Shown piece by piece: positions 6,240 through 32,074 of a DNA stretch of 64,000 nt. Made by a program: the position numbers and the translations under genes. This DNA is from Akkermansiaceae bacterium (GTDB lineage Bacteria; Verrucomicrobiota; Verrucomicrobiia; Verrucomicrobiales; Akkermansiaceae), in contig CAIVKO010000004.1 in assembly GCA_903906515.1 (NCBI GenBank), positions 17,408-81,407 on the forward strand, read 5' to 3'. Within the stretch, counting starts at the first letter, position 1; the number at the start of each line of letters is the position of its first letter. The notes under the pieces were generated by a model that saw only the letters and a list, made by a program, of their open reading frames with translations, was not told where the DNA came from and searched no databases.

Positions 6240-7847
6240 CTACGGCAGCAAGGGCAACCCAAGCTCCTTCAGGAATTGGTTGTGCTTGCTGGTCGCGGTG
6301 CGGATCGACTTTTCAAGGCCCACGAGTTTTTGGTGGTTACCAGCAAGGTCGATCTCCTTATCCGACACCGCCGTACTGATGTAGCGGGAGATATTGAGGT
6401 TGAAGTCGTTCTTCGCGATCTCCTCCATCCCCACGCGGCGGGAGTAGCGGGTCTCCTCCTTGCGAAACTGATAGGTGTCGATGATTTTTGAAATGTGCTC
6501 CTGCGTGAGTTGGTTCTGACGCTTGCCTTTCACGAAGTGCTCGGCGGCGTTGATGAAGAGAACGTCGTCGGGCTTCTTGCACTTCTTGAGCACGAGGATG
6601 CAGACGGGGATGCCGGTGGAATAGAAGAGATTGGCGGGCAGGCCGATGACGGTGTCGATGTGGCCGTCCTTGAGCAACTTGGTGCGGATGCGTTCCTCGG
6701 CTCCGCCACGGAAAAGAACGCCGTGGGGCAGGATGATGGCCATGACGCCTTCATCTTTGAGGAAGTGGAAACCGTGGAGCAGGAAGGCAAAGTCGGCGGC
6801 GGACTTGGGGGCGAGGCCGTGGTTTTTGAAACGCACGTCATCGCCCATGGCGTCGGTGGGTTCCCAGCGGTAGCTGAAGGGCGGATTGGCGACGATGGCG
6901 TCGAAGCTGGGTTTCTTCGCCGGGTTCAACTCACGCTGCATGTCCCACTCGTTAGTTAGGGTGTCGCCGTGGAAGATTTCGAACTCGGTGTCCTTCACCC
7001 CGTGCAGCAGCATGTTCATGCGGGCCAGGTTGTAGGTGGTGATGTTCTTTTCCTGTCCGTAGATCTTGCCGATGCCTTGCGGCCCCATGCGTTTGCGCAC
7101 GTTGAGCAGCAGGGAGCCGGAGCCGCAGGCAAAGTCCAGCACGCTTTCCAGCCGTTTCTTCGGCCCGGTTTTCGGTTCCTGGCTGTCCAGCGTGACGATG
7201 GTGGAGAGGATGTCGGAAATCTGCTGCGGGGTGTAGAACTCGCCCGCCTTCTTGCCCGACCCGGCGGCAAACTGGCCGATCAGGTATTCATAGGCATCGC
7301 CCAGCGCGTCGATGTTGGTGGAAAACTCGTTCAGCCCCTCGGCGATCTTCTGGATGATGGTGCAGAGCTTGGCGTTGCGGTCGGCGTAGGTCTTGCCGAG
7401 TTTGGGAGAGGCCAGATCGATCTCGGAAAACAGGCCGTCAAACGTGCTCTCGAAGGACTCGTCTTGAATGTATTTGAAACCGGCCTGCAGAGTGTTCAGC
7501 AGCTCGCCATTCTGGGTGCGGGCCATGCCGGCGATACTGTTCCAGAGGTGCGGTGGCTGGATGACGTAATGCACCTTGCGGCGCATCTGTTTCTCGAAGG
7601 TTGGGATGTCCTTACGGTTGTTCTTATACCAAGACGCCAGTGGAACGCTGCGATCATCCGCGCCGAGCTTGGGATAATCTTTCCCCAGTTCCTTCTTAGC
7701 CGCCGTCTCGTAGTTATCCGAGAGGTAGCGCAGGAAGAGGAAGGACAGCATGTAGTCGCGGAAATCGTCCGCATCCATCGCCCCACGCAGTTGGTCGGCG
7801 ATGCCCCAGAGGGTGGAGCCTAGTTTCTTTTGGTTGGTGTCGGTCAT
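6240..7847 (-). CDS. hsdM: Type I restriction-modification system DNA methyltransferase subunit HsdM
   Basis: FACGSGSLLLNV and IVANPPFSYRW motifs; N-terminal HsdM domain. Confidence 0.93.
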   Translation of the reverse strand: MTDTNQKKLGSTLWGIADQLRGAMDADDFRDYMLSFLFLRYLSDNYETAAKKELGKDYPKLGADDRSVPLASWYKNNRKDIPTFEKQMRRKVHYVIQPPHLWNSIAGMARTQNGELLNTLQAGFKYIQDESFESTFDGLFSEIDLASPKLGKTYADRNAKLCTIIQKIAEGLNEFSTNIDALGDAYEYLIGQFAAGSGKKAGEFYTPQQISDILSTIVTLDSQEPKTGPKKRLESVLDFACGSGSLLLNVRKRMGPQGIGKIYGQEKNITTYNLARMNMLLHGVKDTEFEIFHGDTLTNEWDMQRELNPAKKPSFDAIVANPPFSYRWEPTDAMGDDVRFKNHGLAPKSAADFAFLLHGFHFLKDEGVMAIILPHGVLFRGGAEERIRTKLLKDGHIDTVIGLPANLFYSTGIPVCILVLKKCKKPDDVLFINAAEHFVKGKRQNQLTQEHISKIIDTYQFRKEETRYSRRVGMEEIAKNDFNLNISRYISTAVSDKEIDLAGNHQKLVGLEKSIRTATSKHNQFLKELGLPLLP

Positions 7848-8845
7848 TTTTTTGGGCGACGTTTGATTTTGGTTTCGAGCGCTCTGAGGTCGGCCTCGTC
7901 CTCTTGATCGGCTGCCTGCGCTTCCTGGTTTTTTCGGCGCTGATCGTAGTCGAGATAGAGGGCGCTGGTCTTGTTCTCCATCTGTTCATGGCTGATGGCC
8001 CCCGCATGGGTCAGCAGCGGGAAGCCGTTGGAGGTGATGATCTGGTCCACGTTTGCCTTCCAGAAGCTCATGCGTGTCTCCTGCTTGCTCTTCGCTCGCA
8101 GCTCGGCGGTTTCCAGGAAGATGACCACGAGGCGGTTCAGGGTGTCTATCTCGTCTTCGGTGAGATAGTTTTTAGCGACGACGATGTCCGCCTTGCGCAC
8201 CTTTTCGCCCTTCCAGGCGAGCAAGCCGAAATGCGGATCGGCGGGATTCGCCCGGGCGGTGATGAGTTCGGCGGCGGTTTTCCGCGTCACAGCGAAAATC
8301 AGCAGGTTCTGCACCGTGGCGAAGAAGACCTGTGTGGCCTTGTCCGTCTTGTCGTAGTCGCTGCTCAGGGCAAAGAGGTCGCGCACTTTCTGGTAAAAGC
8401 GCTTCTCGGAGGCCCGGATGTCCCGGATGCGCTCCAGCATTTCATCGAAATAATCCGGACGGCCATCCGGATTCTTCAGCCGCTCGTCGTCCATCACGAA
8501 GCCCTTGAGCAGGTATTCCTTCAGGATAGTGGAGGCCCAGCGGCGGAACTGCACCCCACGAGGCGAGCGCACCCGGTAGCCCACGGCCAGAATAGCGTCA
8601 AGGTTGTAGAGTTTGGTGGAGTAGGCCTTGCCGTCTGCTGCAGTTGTCAAGGATTCCTTGACAACTGAATCCTCGCTCAGCTCTCCGTCCTCGAAGACGT
8701 TCTTCAGGTGCAGGGAGATGTTCTGTTTGGTGGCGTCAAACAGTTCCGCCATTTCCAGCTGCGTCAGCCAGACGGTTTGCTCCTGCGCCCGCAGTTTGAT
8801 CTGGCTGCGGCCGTCATCGGTGGTGTAGAGAATAAGGTCGTTCAT
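7844..8845 (-). CDS. rhuM: RhuM family protein
   Basis: LRAQEQTVWLTQLEMAELFDATKQNISLHLKNVFEDGEL..VVKESLTTAADGK..YNLDAILAVGYRVRS; start moved to MNDLILYTTDDG at 8845; 4-nt overlap with hsdM. Confidence 0.88.
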   Translation of the reverse strand: MNDLILYTTDDGRSQIKLRAQEQTVWLTQLEMAELFDATKQNISLHLKNVFEDGELSEDSVVKESLTTAADGKAYSTKLYNLDAILAVGYRVRSPRGVQFRRWASTILKEYLLKGFVMDDERLKNPDGRPDYFDEMLERIRDIRASEKRFYQKVRDLFALSSDYDKTDKATQVFFATVQNLLIFAVTRKTAAELITARANPADPHFGLLAWKGEKVRKADIVVAKNYLTEDEIDTLNRLVVIFLETAELRAKSKQETRMSFWKANVDQIITSNGFPLLTHAGAISHEQMENKTSALYLDYDQRRKNQEAQAADQEDEADLRALETKIKRRPKK

Positions 8846-8873
8846 GGGGTTGGTTGGGAGGCTTCGTGGTGGA

Positions 8874-9026
8874 TCATTTTCGTGACGCCACGAAATTGAT
8901 CCGCTTCGATTCGGCGGAACAAAAAAGCATAGGGTCACAGAAGTTGTCCGCATCCATCGCCCCGCGCAGTGGGTCGGCGATGCTCCAGAGGGTCTTGCCC
9001 TGTTTCTTTTGGTTGGTGTCGGTCAT
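8874..9026 (-). pseudogene. Partial duplicate of the hsdM 5' end (50-aa ORF)
   Basis: MTDTNQKKQGKTLWSIADPLRGAMDADNFCDPML resembles hsdM MTDTNQKKLGSTLWGIADQLRGAMDADDFRDYML, then diverges. Confidence 0.85.
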
Positions 9027-9083
9027 GGGGAGATCGTTCAGGGAAGGTTGGTGTGGGCGTATCGTTGTGCAGAATATCCACTA

Positions 9084-9971
9084 TTAATTTATAGTTTTCC
9101 ACGGATGTCGAATTTCGGGAAACTCATTAGGAGACAAACATGCCTCACGCCATTTTTTTACGACTTCCGGAACGGGCAAGCTTCGCGAGCTGTAATGTGC
9201 CAAGAGTGCCGCTGCCAGAATAGATGAGACGCGCCTAACTTCCAGTTTCTCGTCAAATTTCAGATCTGAATTGTCGTTATCGTATGCCGTATCGGCAAGA
9301 AGTCTATCAAGCCGCCATTGGGTGGCTACCTCCAGGCCGCGGGAGTAACTTGCTGGCGAATTTTTCAGAATACGGACGATGATCCACAGCGCCGAGCTTA
9401 TGGTAACGATGAAGAGCTGGAGGAAGCAGAGGAGCGTCTTGGAGTAGCCGTTGCCGGGATCATTCTTGTAATCGACGATCTGCTCCATCGCCCGGCGCGG
9501 GTTGATGGTGAGGGTTTTCAGCTCAACCTGGACGCAGGGCACGCCGTTGATGAGGATGATGACATCGTAACGGTGGTGGCTGTTGTCCGTGTTGATGCGG
9601 AGCTGGCTAATGACCTCGAAGGTGTTTTTGCACCAGTCCTTGATATTGACGAGGGTGTAATTCAGCGGCGTGCCGTCGTCGCGGGTGAATGCATTGATTT
9701 GGCGGAGAGTCTTGGCGGCGGCGAAGACATCGGGGGTGATGATCTCGTCAAGCAGGCGGGCGAACTCGCCGTCGGTGAGGCGGACGCGGTTGAGGTCCTC
9801 GAACTTTTCACGGAAGTTTTTCTCCAATGACGCGCGGTCCGTGATGTCCGGGCGGTATTCGTATTTGAGTCGCTGGAGTCGGCCGATGAAACCATACTCG
9901 ATGTGGTCCTCCCGGACGACCGAGCCGTGGAGCTCGTTCGGCAGGTTGTAGGCGGACTTTGGAGGAGACAT
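9084..9971 (-). pseudogene. Truncated type I restriction endonuclease subunit R (N-terminal nuclease part only) joined to an unrelated tail
   Basis: YDVIILINGVPCVQVELK..AMEQIVDYKNDPGNG..CFLQLFIV is HsdR-like; no helicase motifs follow; tail ILKNSPASYSRGLEVATQW.. is not HsdR-like. Confidence 0.8.
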
Positions 9972-27895: not shown

Positions 27896-28258
27896 TCAGG
27901 CAACCGGCATATCACACCGCAGTTGATGGACGGCGCGGTCGAGTTTGCGAAGCAGGTGCCACACCCCGGCCAGACCCAGCAGCAGGCCGCTGCCGAGACC
28001 GAGCGCGAGAATGACTTCGGAGCCTGATACGAGCCAGAGCAGAGCGGATCCCGTAGCAACGACCACGCTCGCCGCCAGCAAGCCCAGGCAGATCAGCCAT
28101 GTCGCTGTTTCCAGCGCCCTCCGGAACCAAATTTTCACGCGTTCAATTTTGATAGGAATCACAATGTTTTCTTTCATAGCGGGCGAACGTTCGCACCACA
28201 CGATGGCGGCATGATGAAGCACCAGTGAATCTTTGGTGAATTCAAGCGGGTAATTCAA
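27896..28258 (-). CDS. Small membrane protein (2 predicted TM); real start may be 28177
   Basis: TWLICLGLLAASVVVATGSALLWLV and VILALGLGSGLLLGLAGV hydrophobic segments; TTG at 28258 overlaps upstream stop; ATG alternative MKENIVIPIK. Confidence 0.5.
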   Translation of the reverse strand: MNYPLEFTKDSLVLHHAAIVWCERSPAMKENIVIPIKIERVKIWFRRALETATWLICLGLLAASVVVATGSALLWLVSGSEVILALGLGSGLLLGLAGVWHLLRKLDRAVHQLRCDMPVA

Positions 28259-28872
28259 TGAGGCTCAGCGAGCATCTGCGGCAAGAGCGTCTGGTGCCGC
28301 GGCACGCCGGTCATCGCGACGTCGAGTCCGAGCCTTTGGCACATAGAGACCACCGCCCGCCCGAGGATGTCCACATCACCCCGCGCGTCGTGGCGGCGGA
28401 GGCTGGTATCTTGCAGTCCAAGGCGAGACTTCACATAATCCAACGAATGTCCGGTGCCACGTGTTTTACCGAAGAGCATTTTTGAAATATGGATAGAATC
28501 GATGCAATCCACCTCTCGGGTAGGTAGTCCATGTCGTTGGCAGGTGGCGGCGAGGAACTTGGAGTCGAAGCGCAGGCCGTTGTGCGCGATCAGAGTGGCA
28601 TCTCCGGCCCATTGCGCAAAGCTGCACAAAACCTCTTCCGGGCGCGGCGCTCCGACGACATGGCGGTTGCCGATGCCGGTGTAGCTCTCAATGAAGGATG
28701 AAATCGGCCGACGCGGCCGGGCAAAGCTAAAAAACGAATCTTCAGCGATGATGCAGCCCTCCTGATAACGAACCGCCGCGATCTGAATGAATTCGTCCTC
28801 GTTCGGATACAGCCCGGTGGTTTCAAGGTCGTAGATCACAAACGAAGCATTATGGTGGGATTCGATTTTCAC
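28255..28872 (-). CDS. DEDD-family 3'-5' exonuclease (exonuclease I / DNA pol III epsilon-like)
   Basis: FVIYDLETTGLYPNEDEFIQIAAVRY; LIAHNGLRFDSKFL; HDARGDVDILGRAV; GTG start with GGAGG 8 nt upstream. Confidence 0.85.
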   Translation of the reverse strand: MKIESHHNASFVIYDLETTGLYPNEDEFIQIAAVRYQEGCIIAEDSFFSFARPRRPISSFIESYTGIGNRHVVGAPRPEEVLCSFAQWAGDATLIAHNGLRFDSKFLAATCQRHGLPTREVDCIDSIHISKMLFGKTRGTGHSLDYVKSRLGLQDTSLRRHDARGDVDILGRAVVSMCQRLGLDVAMTGVPRHQTLLPQMLAEPH

Positions 28873-28875
28873 GGG

Positions 28876-28995
28876 CTAATCCTCCCGCTCCGCCGCCACG
28901 CCTTCTGGCGCAATCACCGCGCCATGGACGTAATTCCACCCCGTGTCCTGAAACCACTGGATGGCGAGTTGTTCGAGTTGGTCTTCGGTGATCAT
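28876..28995 (-). pseudogene. 39-aa ORF resembling the N-terminus of a type I restriction endonuclease subunit R
   Basis: MITEDQLEQLAIQWFQDTGWNYVHGAVIAPEGVAAERED*; missing from the ORF track. Confidence 0.65.
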
Positions 28996-28998
28996 GAT

Positions 28999-30297
28999 CT
29001 AACGGCGCGGATGTTTGAGCCAGAATGGATAACGGCTTGGAGGTGGAGGCTGGTAACTGGATGATTCATAGCCTGACTTGACCACCACAGGGGCGGGAAT
29101 TTCAGGCATCGTCGGAGGGCGCGGAAACTTCCGTGTCGCAGGATAAGGACCTCCAAACGCCACTGACGCCGGATCAAATCCTCCATCTGCGAGTGGGTCA
29201 GGATAACCGGTTTCAAACGGCGACAATGCTCCGGCCTCGGCTCGCGCCCACGTCATCCAATGCTTCTGTTCATCCGTCAATTCGCCGCCTTGCGCAGCGA
29301 GCCAGCGTTGTTCGCACTCTGCGATGAAACCTGCCACAGACTGATGCAACTGCCACCATTCGGCCGCCTTGACCAGATCATCCCGGCGTTGCTGCTCGGC
29401 CAATTCCAGCGCTTTCGCATGCTTTTCCTCGGCCTCTTTGCTGCGGCGGATCGCTTCTGCCCGAAGATACTCCTGATGCCGACGTTCCGACTCCACCCGC
29501 TGCTTCGCACGTTCGATCAGTTCTGCTTCCCGTTGTTTCTGAGCCTCCATGTAGTAGTTGCAGATGTATTTGGCCATCTCCGCCAGAACCTTTTCCAACG
29601 AATTTTTGTCGTTCTCCTCCCAAGTTTCGAGGCCGGACGAACCGTAACGCGAAGTCTTCAAGGTGAATGTTAGAAAACCGCAGGGCACCGTGTTTTCTTG
29701 CGAATTCGCGTAATAAGTCTGGCGTCGTCCACCCGTCTCTGGCTTGGCTACCAATTTCTCTTCGATCTTGAAATGGAGACGGTCGTTTCCCTTCCTAAAA
29801 TGCCCTCCATCATACGAACTCTGTGAGCGGCGAAAATGGATGCCCGGCGGTTCCACCACTTGAAGCAACACATGAAACGCTTGCGCCGCACGCAGCACCA
29901 TTCCCTTGCTGATTTCCGTCTCGGGAAACGGACGCTCCCGGAGATGGATTCGCTTCTTGTCGTAACCCAAGCTGGCGGATTGCGCTGCTTTGAGAAATTC
30001 CGCAGCCAGGGCATGCAGAGGTGCGGATTCCTCTGGCAACTTCAGGCTTTGATCCTTGAATTCGCGGACTTTCTTGATCAATGCCTGCTCGGAGTCTGGA
30101 GGCAATGGGGACCGTTTCGGACGTTGCCCGGCCTCAATCCTAGCCCAATAGCCGCGTGGGGGCCTCGGGATATTCAACTTGCGGCAGCGCTTCGCGATGG
30201 CCACGTCCGACATGCCGAATTCCTTCGAAAGCTTGATGCCAGGCTTGGACCAAACCTTTTCGTAAAGTTCTTCACGGCTCAAATCATCCAGCTTCAT
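28999..30297 (-). CDS. Hypothetical protein with N-terminal HTH-like and central coiled-coil regions
   Basis: MKLDDLSREELYEKVWSKPGIKLSKEFGMSDVAIAKRCRKLNIPRPPRGYWARIEAGQ; 4-nt overlap with hipA stop. Confidence 0.75.
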   Translation of the reverse strand: MKLDDLSREELYEKVWSKPGIKLSKEFGMSDVAIAKRCRKLNIPRPPRGYWARIEAGQRPKRSPLPPDSEQALIKKVREFKDQSLKLPEESAPLHALAAEFLKAAQSASLGYDKKRIHLRERPFPETEISKGMVLRAAQAFHVLLQVVEPPGIHFRRSQSSYDGGHFRKGNDRLHFKIEEKLVAKPETGGRRQTYYANSQENTVPCGFLTFTLKTSRYGSSGLETWEENDKNSLEKVLAEMAKYICNYYMEAQKQREAELIERAKQRVESERRHQEYLRAEAIRRSKEAEEKHAKALELAEQQRRDDLVKAAEWWQLHQSVAGFIAECEQRWLAAQGGELTDEQKHWMTWARAEAGALSPFETGYPDPLADGGFDPASVAFGGPYPATRKFPRPPTMPEIPAPVVVKSGYESSSYQPPPPSRYPFWLKHPRR

Positions 30298-31598
30298 TTT
30301 TTCGGAAATGTCAGTCGATGGGTCTTTGCGATCTTATCCTGCCATTCTGGCGTGAGCCCGGCCTCCGCCGCAAACTCCTGCCAGCGCTGCACCGCCGCCT
30401 GCACTTCCTCGATGATCTTCGCGGCGCGGCCCCGCTTCATCACCGCTGCTTTCGCACACACCTCGAAATCTTCCAGCGCAAAACCGTCGCGCTTTCCGTT
30501 CAGCGTCATCTGATGCTGGGCGGTCCATGAGCCGGAGGGGTTGTAGCTGTAAGTCACGTCAAAGGCCGGTGCGAGCGACCACTCGCCCTGCTGGTTCATC
30601 AGGAACGCAATGTTCTTCACATGATCATCCTGATTCCGCGCCACGATGTTGAAGACCATCCGCCGGAACTGCTCCTCCACCGCGGCCATCGGCAGCTTCA
30701 ACTGCCGGATCGTAAGCAACGCCTGCTCGTAGGCATAGGCTCCGGCTTGGTTGAAATCGAAATGCGCCAGCGCACAGAGCGACTGCATGTGCAGCTTCGC
30801 TCCACCCGCGAGGCGATCGAAGCGCCGCGTCATGAAATGACGGCGACCGTTTTCCTCCAGCAACCGGCACTCGCTCATCGTAATGCCCGCCGCCTTCGCC
30901 ATTAGGTGATACGCAAACTCAATCGCGCCATAACCCTTCGGGTCTTCCAGTTCCTTGTCCTTGTTGCCCGCCACGCCGTCGAATTTCAGCAGCCAGTAAT
31001 CGAAACCCTCGCCCGCCGCGATCTGGCCCGAGCGCACCTCGTTCGTCATGCGATTCCACGCGATCACCGCCTTGGCCCTCGCACCCCCAGCCGAGGTGCC
31101 CACGCTCAAGATGTCGCGCAGCGCTTTTTCCTTCCCGGCCTCGTGAAAATGTCCCTGCAAATCACCGCGATGCGTCAGCACCTCGCCAGCAAGCCGCACC
31201 AGCTCATCAATCTCAATCTTCGACGGCTTGCGCGGCTTCGGCCCCAGCACCGGCGTAAATTCCAGCGCACCCATCCCGCGCGTGCCGGTGTAGCATAGCC
31301 GCTCCACCGCATTGAAACTCTCCGACGTCCGACCCTGCGTCGCCAGCCATGCATCGATCAGAGCATTGCCGAATTTGTCCGGCAGCGAATCCGCCAGCAG
31401 CCCCGGAAGTCCGTGAAAGGTATTCTGCGGCAGCGCAGGAAATTCATACACCCGATCGTTCAAAGGCATCGTCAGTGGCGACAGTTCGATTCCGCTGCGA
31501 GCAAACTCGGCGTCGTATTGAAATGCCGCCACGTCGCGCCCTTCGGCGAGTGATACCGCGCCGATCGTCCGGCCCCAAAGCTGGACTTTCGCGATCAT
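30294..31598 (-). CDS. hipA: HipA family serine/threonine kinase toxin
   Basis: VQLWGRTIGAVSLAEG; LPGLLADSLPDKFGNALI; NQDDHVKNIAFLMN; SLAPAFDVTYSYNP. Confidence 0.92.
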   Translation of the reverse strand: MIAKVQLWGRTIGAVSLAEGRDVAAFQYDAEFARSGIELSPLTMPLNDRVYEFPALPQNTFHGLPGLLADSLPDKFGNALIDAWLATQGRTSESFNAVERLCYTGTRGMGALEFTPVLGPKPRKPSKIEIDELVRLAGEVLTHRGDLQGHFHEAGKEKALRDILSVGTSAGGARAKAVIAWNRMTNEVRSGQIAAGEGFDYWLLKFDGVAGNKDKELEDPKGYGAIEFAYHLMAKAAGITMSECRLLEENGRRHFMTRRFDRLAGGAKLHMQSLCALAHFDFNQAGAYAYEQALLTIRQLKLPMAAVEEQFRRMVFNIVARNQDDHVKNIAFLMNQQGEWSLAPAFDVTYSYNPSGSWTAQHQMTLNGKRDGFALEDFEVCAKAAVMKRGRAAKIIEEVQAAVQRWQEFAAEAGLTPEWQDKIAKTHRLTFPKK

Positions 31599-31948
31599 AC
31601 CGGCTCACCCCACGTCCATTTTTTCGTCTTGTCAGGCCCTGCTTTTTTTCCCGTCGCCCGCTGACGCTTCCGGCCCGCTTGCTTTAATTGCGCCATCGGG
31701 CCGGGCACCGGTTCCGGCAGCAGCGTCTCAAATCGCTCCAACAAACCGAGCGCACGGCAGACCCGAAGAAAAACCGAGAGCTGCGTCGCCACCTCCCCCG
31801 ATTCCAGCCGCTCGACGGTCCGCTTGGACACTCCCGCTTTTTCCGCCAGCGCTGCCTGCGTCAGGTTGTGCTCAATGCGTGCACCGGCCAGACGACCGCC
31901 CAATTCTTTGAGCACGGCCTCATCGGTCAGTTGCGGCGAAATCTTCAT
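31595..31948 (-). CDS. hipB: HipB-like XRE family antitoxin
   Basis: LAGARIEHNLTQAALAEKAGVSKRTVERLESGE HTH; 4-nt overlap with hipA. Confidence 0.9.
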   Translation of the reverse strand: MKISPQLTDEAVLKELGGRLAGARIEHNLTQAALAEKAGVSKRTVERLESGEVATQLSVFLRVCRALGLLERFETLLPEPVPGPMAQLKQAGRKRQRATGKKAGPDKTKKWTWGEPV

Positions 31949-31951
31949 AAC

Positions 31952-32074
31952 GCGTCATATATGGCGAATTAAATCAATATAGCAAGCTGATTCGTCACTA
32001 ATGGCGATTTAATTCAAGTCGCCACTTATGGCGAAAAAATGACTCTGCCAAGTTTAATTCGCCTCTTGTGCCGA
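31952..32074. promoter_or_regulatory. Four-copy palindromic operator array upstream of hipBA
   Basis: 16-bp sites at 31952-31967, 31992-32007, 32019-32034 (perfect TCGCCA-CTTA-TGGCGA), 32059-32074; centre spacing 40/27/40. Confidence 0.75.

Follow-up and report, generated by a model that had tools for sequence, protein, structure and literature searches.

A 64 kb stretch of an Akkermansiaceae draft assembly (265 contigs), called the window below, carries a compact locus made up of the toxin-antitoxin (TA) genes hipB and hipA, a gene that we call X, a 39-amino-acid (aa) open reading frame (ORF), a DEDDh exonuclease gene and a small membrane ORF. Our analysis indicates that this locus is very probably orphaned cargo of a type I restriction-modification (RM) operon, in which hipBA and X formerly stood between hsdS and hsdR, in the so-called R-linked ORF slot. 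Three observations together lead to this reading: a stub of hsdR in the locus, relatives of HipA and of X that lie just before hsdR in other genomes, and one further genome in which an hsdR head, X and hipB stand side by side. G and L numbers are our handles for genomes and fetched loci.

The 39-aa ORF matches Pfam HSDR_N (E=4e-4) and the PADLOC REase_I model, and 38 of its 39 residues (97%) agree with the intact hsdR of a genome of the same genus, G257, whose operon is complete (L211, hsdM-hsdS-x-x-hsdR). Along the 118 nucleotides (nt) that run from its start codon to window position 28878, this hsdR is 92.4% identical to the window, and there the similarity ends abruptly. The domain match and the abrupt end of similarity identify the ORF as a broken hsdR head and not a separate small gene, a point that an earlier note on this DNA had overlooked. 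The layout described in that note is exact according to the ORF coordinates: hipB, hipA and X are joined by 4-nt overlaps of the ATGA type, the 39-aa ORF starts 3 nt past X and the exonuclease 3 nt past the ORF, all on the minus strand. On this reading hsdM, hsdS and the part of hsdR past its first 39 codons would have been lost, with the break now 5 nt before the exonuclease start codon.

Matches to Pfam HTH_3, HipA_C and Couple_hipA bear out the HipB/HipA pair recognized in the earlier note. HipA has its N- and C-terminal domains and its catalytic motifs (VGTSAGGARAK at 166, NQDDHVKN at 322 and PAFDV at 344), its alignment with HipT kinases spans NxDxHxKN and PA(F/Y)D, and upstream is a small helix-turn-helix (HTH) antitoxin gene that overlaps hipA by 4 nt. 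The closest HipA relative (90% identity, G179, L135) is found in an intact type I operon with the order hsdM-hsdS-hipB-hipA-hsdR, in which hipA and hsdR overlap by 4 nt, while in G012 (83%, L139) hipBA comes after hsdR and has an hsdR head of about 25 codons behind it; X is absent from both hipBA loci. Most of the HipA relatives at 58-87% identity stand alone. An hsdR of this family lies in the neighbourhood at 2 of 22 HipA loci, where about 0.005 would be expected (P about 1e-5, a rough estimate that assumes uniform placement), and the stub in the window is additional to these two. HipA relatives at 83-90% identity were found only in distantly related members of the phylum, which points to transfer.

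All three of the nearest relatives of X are linked to a type I operon. The closest (57%, G280, L046) belongs to an operon with the order hsdM-hsdS-DUF6119-PsyrT-PsyrA-X-hsdR, where X lies 24 nt upstream of hsdR, hipBA is absent and PsyrTA occupies the space between hsdS and hsdR just 5' of X (L046:5832-9256; PsyrT 1.5e-273, PsyrA 6e-133). The next (50%, L033) shows hsdM-hsdS-Abi_C-unknown-X on a contig that stops inside X. The third (49%, L032, a Spartobacteria metagenome-assembled genome) has an hsdR head, then X, then a hipB operator and the start of hipB, where the contig ends. Relatives further off are found in other settings. The family is coherent and patchy in its distribution, with members of about 400 aa; its plasmid matches have mostly the N-terminal HTH alone in common with X, and two further searches, one at the level of the family and one in the order of G179, gave no additional close relatives.

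A comparison of X with the Pfam, NCBIfam and PADLOC models returned no family and only a weak RWP-RK-like N-terminus. Its AlphaFold model (pLDDT 76, pTM 0.49) consists of an N-terminal HTH (segment REELYEKVW...RPPRGYWA), an alpha/beta middle and a helix of about 100 residues, so that its earlier description as an HTH/coiled-coil protein was a fair one; the model matched no PDB fold at E<=0.001. We regard X as an uncharacterised protein family and a putative new addition to the R-linked defence cargo. Separately, the X relatives at L040, L049 and L050 have a neighbour of about 400 aa with clear Pfam ankyrin repeats, and those at L037 and L047 also have a neighbour of about 400 aa, judged ankyrin by eye in L037 and with no Pfam match in L047; this X-ankyrin pairing recurs independently of hipBA. 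An HTH of the X type was also seen at the C-terminus of two proteins of about 465 aa (L059:8811-10208 and L065:9661-11055) that appear integrase-like by eye, so the domain may be common to mobile-element proteins.

R-linked placement between hsdS and hsdR is seen for hipBA in G179 and for X in G280. We also examined the hsdS-hsdR contents of about 20 further operons of the HsdR family that includes the window stub and G257, and found Schlafen AlbA_2, AAA_15/AAA_21 ATPases, an AriA-like ATPase, an AbiP2 reverse transcriptase, TIR plus Abi_C, DUF2290 plus a helicase, DUF1828/1829, RhuM and RecQ/DprA (PsyrTA), among others. These contents agree with the R-linked ORFs reported for Campylobacter (PMC5183652, PMC4619093) and with DarTG2 of enteropathogenic Escherichia coli (EPEC; PMC12255303). 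As cargo of type I restriction operons, hipBA and X are interchangeable. A closer bond between the two would make them functional partners, that is, a three-gene TA variant riding as one cargo in which X modulates HipA or HipB. Their adjacency in two distant genomes (the window and L032, in reversed order) and the 4-nt overlap of hipA and X in the window are in keeping with such a partnership, but these are two cases only, hipB in L032 has its own operator downstream of X at the point where the contig ends, the G280 locus has X but no hipBA and the G179 and G012 loci have hipBA but no X, and we consider the partnership unlikely.

The exonuclease is of the DEDD type, as the earlier note had stated, with all RNase_T/DEDDh motifs (D-x-E, D and H-x(4)-D) present in the segments YDLETTG, AHNGLRFD and HDARGDVD. 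Its start, VKIE, is the same as in a G330 homologue (80% identity), which by eye adjoins alaS, and this common start places the hsdR-head junction just before the exonuclease start codon. No hipA, X or hsd genes were found near the exonuclease relatives at any of 10 loci from eight other genomes, and on this basis we reject the exonuclease as a conserved HipBA partner. The membrane ORF (27896-28258) matches no Pfam family; since none of the fetched loci contains a relative of it, we reject it as a conserved partner too. It could be argued that hipBA, X and the exonuclease form a dedicated multi-gene TA or anti-phage module whose genes evolved together, given the tight overlaps and spacing, the start of the exonuclease 3 nt past the stub and the recurrence of X beside hipB in L032. 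We find this very improbable: a truncated hsdR separates X from the exonuclease, the exonuclease relatives are unlinked, the HipA relatives are mostly alone, and the closest relative of X pairs with PsyrTA and hsdR. The earlier proposal that X and the exonuclease are partners of HipBA therefore stands with respect to the defence-type neighbourhood and the two X-HipBA associations, but not as a self-contained four-gene unit; in the co-localisation with hipBA that it called for, X passes weakly, through L032, and the exonuclease fails.

Orphan hsdR heads also occur elsewhere. A search of the fetched DNA with HsdR N-termini found heads of 39 codons (window), 55 (L032), 98 (contig C224 of the same genome as the window), 86 (G086), 25 (G012) and 19 (G295), and a profile search run later on 208 genomes turned up two more, in G132 (120 codons) and G146 (68 codons), giving eight heads of 19-120 codons in seven genomes, all of which end in stop codons. 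The nucleotide similarity of the heads begins at the hsdR start codon and breaks off abruptly. They lie mostly directly 3' of a cargo gene and often abut the start codon of a further one, which, where present, begins -4 to +16 nt from the head; the G132 head, for example, follows a cargo gene and shares a 4-nt overlap with the gene after it. In a control search of the same 1.69 Mb, seven other 60-residue segments along HsdR gave no short stop-terminated orphan fragments. Candidates at L257 and L258 were not counted because they are frameshifted full-length hsdR genes, and neither was L259, which is merely a fragment with a stop. The locus on contig C224 (L176) is a second type I operon remnant, with an hsdS fragment, an AriA-like ATPase, a 256-aa protein in which TOPRIM-like motifs were recognized by eye, the 98-codon hsdR head, an AlbA_2 protein and an hsdR start at the contig end.

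The stub in the window could in principle be an assembly artefact, produced when a draft contig was mis-joined inside a repeated hsdR, as the assembly is fragmented, the genome has several hsdR genes and every stub-bearing genome seen is a draft. This is highly improbable in view of the uniform start, stop-codon ending and cargo-gene spacing of the eight stubs, the lack of orphan fragments from other HsdR parts and the native start kept by the exonuclease. We infer instead that one-sided recombination, in which hsdR served as the homology arm, left the orphan heads as scars. How they formed can be proposed tentatively, as one possible route by which type I operons stack defence cargo: an incoming cargo-hsdR module would recombine inside hsdR on one side and join illegitimately near the cargo start codon on the other, leaving an orphan head between successive modules. 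The locus in the window would be a stack of this kind that has lost its host operon, and X would be a new R-linked defence family carried with TA systems (HipBA, PsyrTA).

Several points weigh against the interpretation of the locus as orphaned R-linked cargo. We found no hsdS or hsdM remnant beside or upstream of hipB, so it is only the stub that points to the disappearance of the other operon genes. The hsdR genes beside hipBA in G179 and G012 belong to another HsdR subfamily than the stub, no intact hipBA-X-hsdR operon was found among the examined loci, the source genome is a draft of 265 contigs, and the toxicity of HipA and any activity of X are predictions. The locus holds neither the intact hsdM, hsdS and hsdR of a functional type I RM system nor a host operon in place. 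In an empty-site comparison downstream of hisH, with nine relatives of the same genus and one of the family, the flank with hisB-hisH proved conserved and the opposite one rearranged, which left no clean empty site. Elsewhere in the window, a partial type I system (6240-9971, minus strand) has an intact hsdM (6240-7847, 535 aa), RhuM and a 295-aa HSDR_N protein but no hsdS; this hsdM, 20 kb from the locus, is only distantly related.

Upstream of hipB is an array of 16-mers, also overlooked in the earlier note, that we interpret as putative palindromic operators. Their consensus, TCGYCANNNATGGCGA, which was derived from the array copies, is matched perfectly in the 64 kb only at 31992 and 32019, and repeats resembling the array were seen by eye 5' of hipB in L032, L135, L139 and L141. 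A sigma-70 promoter scan gave no signal over chance. In the HipBA system of E. coli, HipA is a kinase toxin and HipB an HTH antitoxin that represses its own promoter, with palindromic operators upstream. The HipA target and HipB repression in that system are described in PMC13092281; the HipBA of the window differs in its operator sequence and in the presence of X after hipA with a 4-nt overlap. In the window, HipB would repress its own promoter via the array, HipA would be the kinase toxin, and X would be translated from the hipBA message through the 4-nt overlap. An autonomous, self-repressed hipBA unit would explain its survival without the operon. HipBA may provide an abortive or dormancy-type back-up to restriction, and with it an anti-phage role: if HipB were lost in stress or infection, HipA would phosphorylate a translation factor and growth would stop. 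X may act as a DNA-binding accessory protein within the defence cargo, with regulation or sensing as its most likely role.

Table 1. Positions of the features at the locus (in the window) and of orphan hsdR heads at other loci.
Feature	Position	Strand	Evidence and remarks
hipB operator-like array	31952..32074		near-palindromic 16-mers at 31952, 31992 and 32019; weaker copy at 32059; spacing 40/27/40
hipB, XRE/HTH_3 antitoxin-repressor, 117 aa	31595..31948	-	Pfam HTH_3 4e-11; NCBIfam couple_hipB 1e-13
hipA, Ser/Thr kinase toxin (predicted), 434 aa	30294..31598	-	HipA_C 5e-53; Couple_hipA 2e-20; kinase motifs intact
gene X, 432 aa	28999..30297	-	N-terminal HTH, alpha/beta middle, ~100-residue helix; no family model
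orphan hsdR head, 39 codons then stop	28876..28995	-	HSDR_N 4e-4; match to G257 hsdR
DEDDh 3'-5' exonuclease, 205 aa	28255..28872	-	RNase_T 1e-23; GTG start
small ORF with two transmembrane segments	27896..28258	-	TTG start doubtful; ATG at 28177
orphan hsdR head	L032:483-650
orphan hsdR head	L176:2660-2956
orphan hsdR head	L198:4564-4824
orphan hsdR head	L139:10293-10367
orphan hsdR head	L216:17457-17516
orphan hsdR head	L256:6950-7312
orphan hsdR head	L255 8133-8339		reverse-complement coordinates

Defence genes within or near type I RM clusters have been described before. The DarTG2 module of EPEC is a TA module between hsdS and hsdR, a position that PMC12255303 describes as a potential hotspot for the recombination of defence systems, with no mechanism given in the available excerpts. 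The slot is the same as here, but the EPEC module is DarTG in an intact RM operon, whereas our locus carries HipBA with X and, of the RM genes, only the hsdR head. As TA modules were already known in the slot, the kind of arrangement is a known one. The rlo genes (R-linked ORFs) of Campylobacter jejuni are likewise intervening ORFs between hsdS and hsdR; the family named in the excerpts of PMC5183652 and PMC4619093 is RloF (DUF262), neither HipBA nor X, and hsdR stubs are not described in them. TgvAB of Vibrio cholerae VPI-2 resembles our case in that defence genes are embedded in a type I RM cluster, but these are type IV restriction genes and the host operon is intact (PMC11411939). In Shewanella putrefaciens, according to the excerpts of PMC8978831, hipAB and a type I hsdR are about 1.5-2 kb apart on the genomic island CGI48, which hipAB stabilises; this hipAB differs in being outside the hsd operon and on the opposite strand, and X is not reported there.

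The new details are HipBA as slot cargo, the unclassified X family and the orphan hsdR heads in eight loci. They link HipBA, a system known above all from work on persistence, with the cargo slot between hsdS and hsdR, and the orphan heads are a readable scar that would allow the stacking of defence genes into restriction operons, and their loss from them, to be traced.

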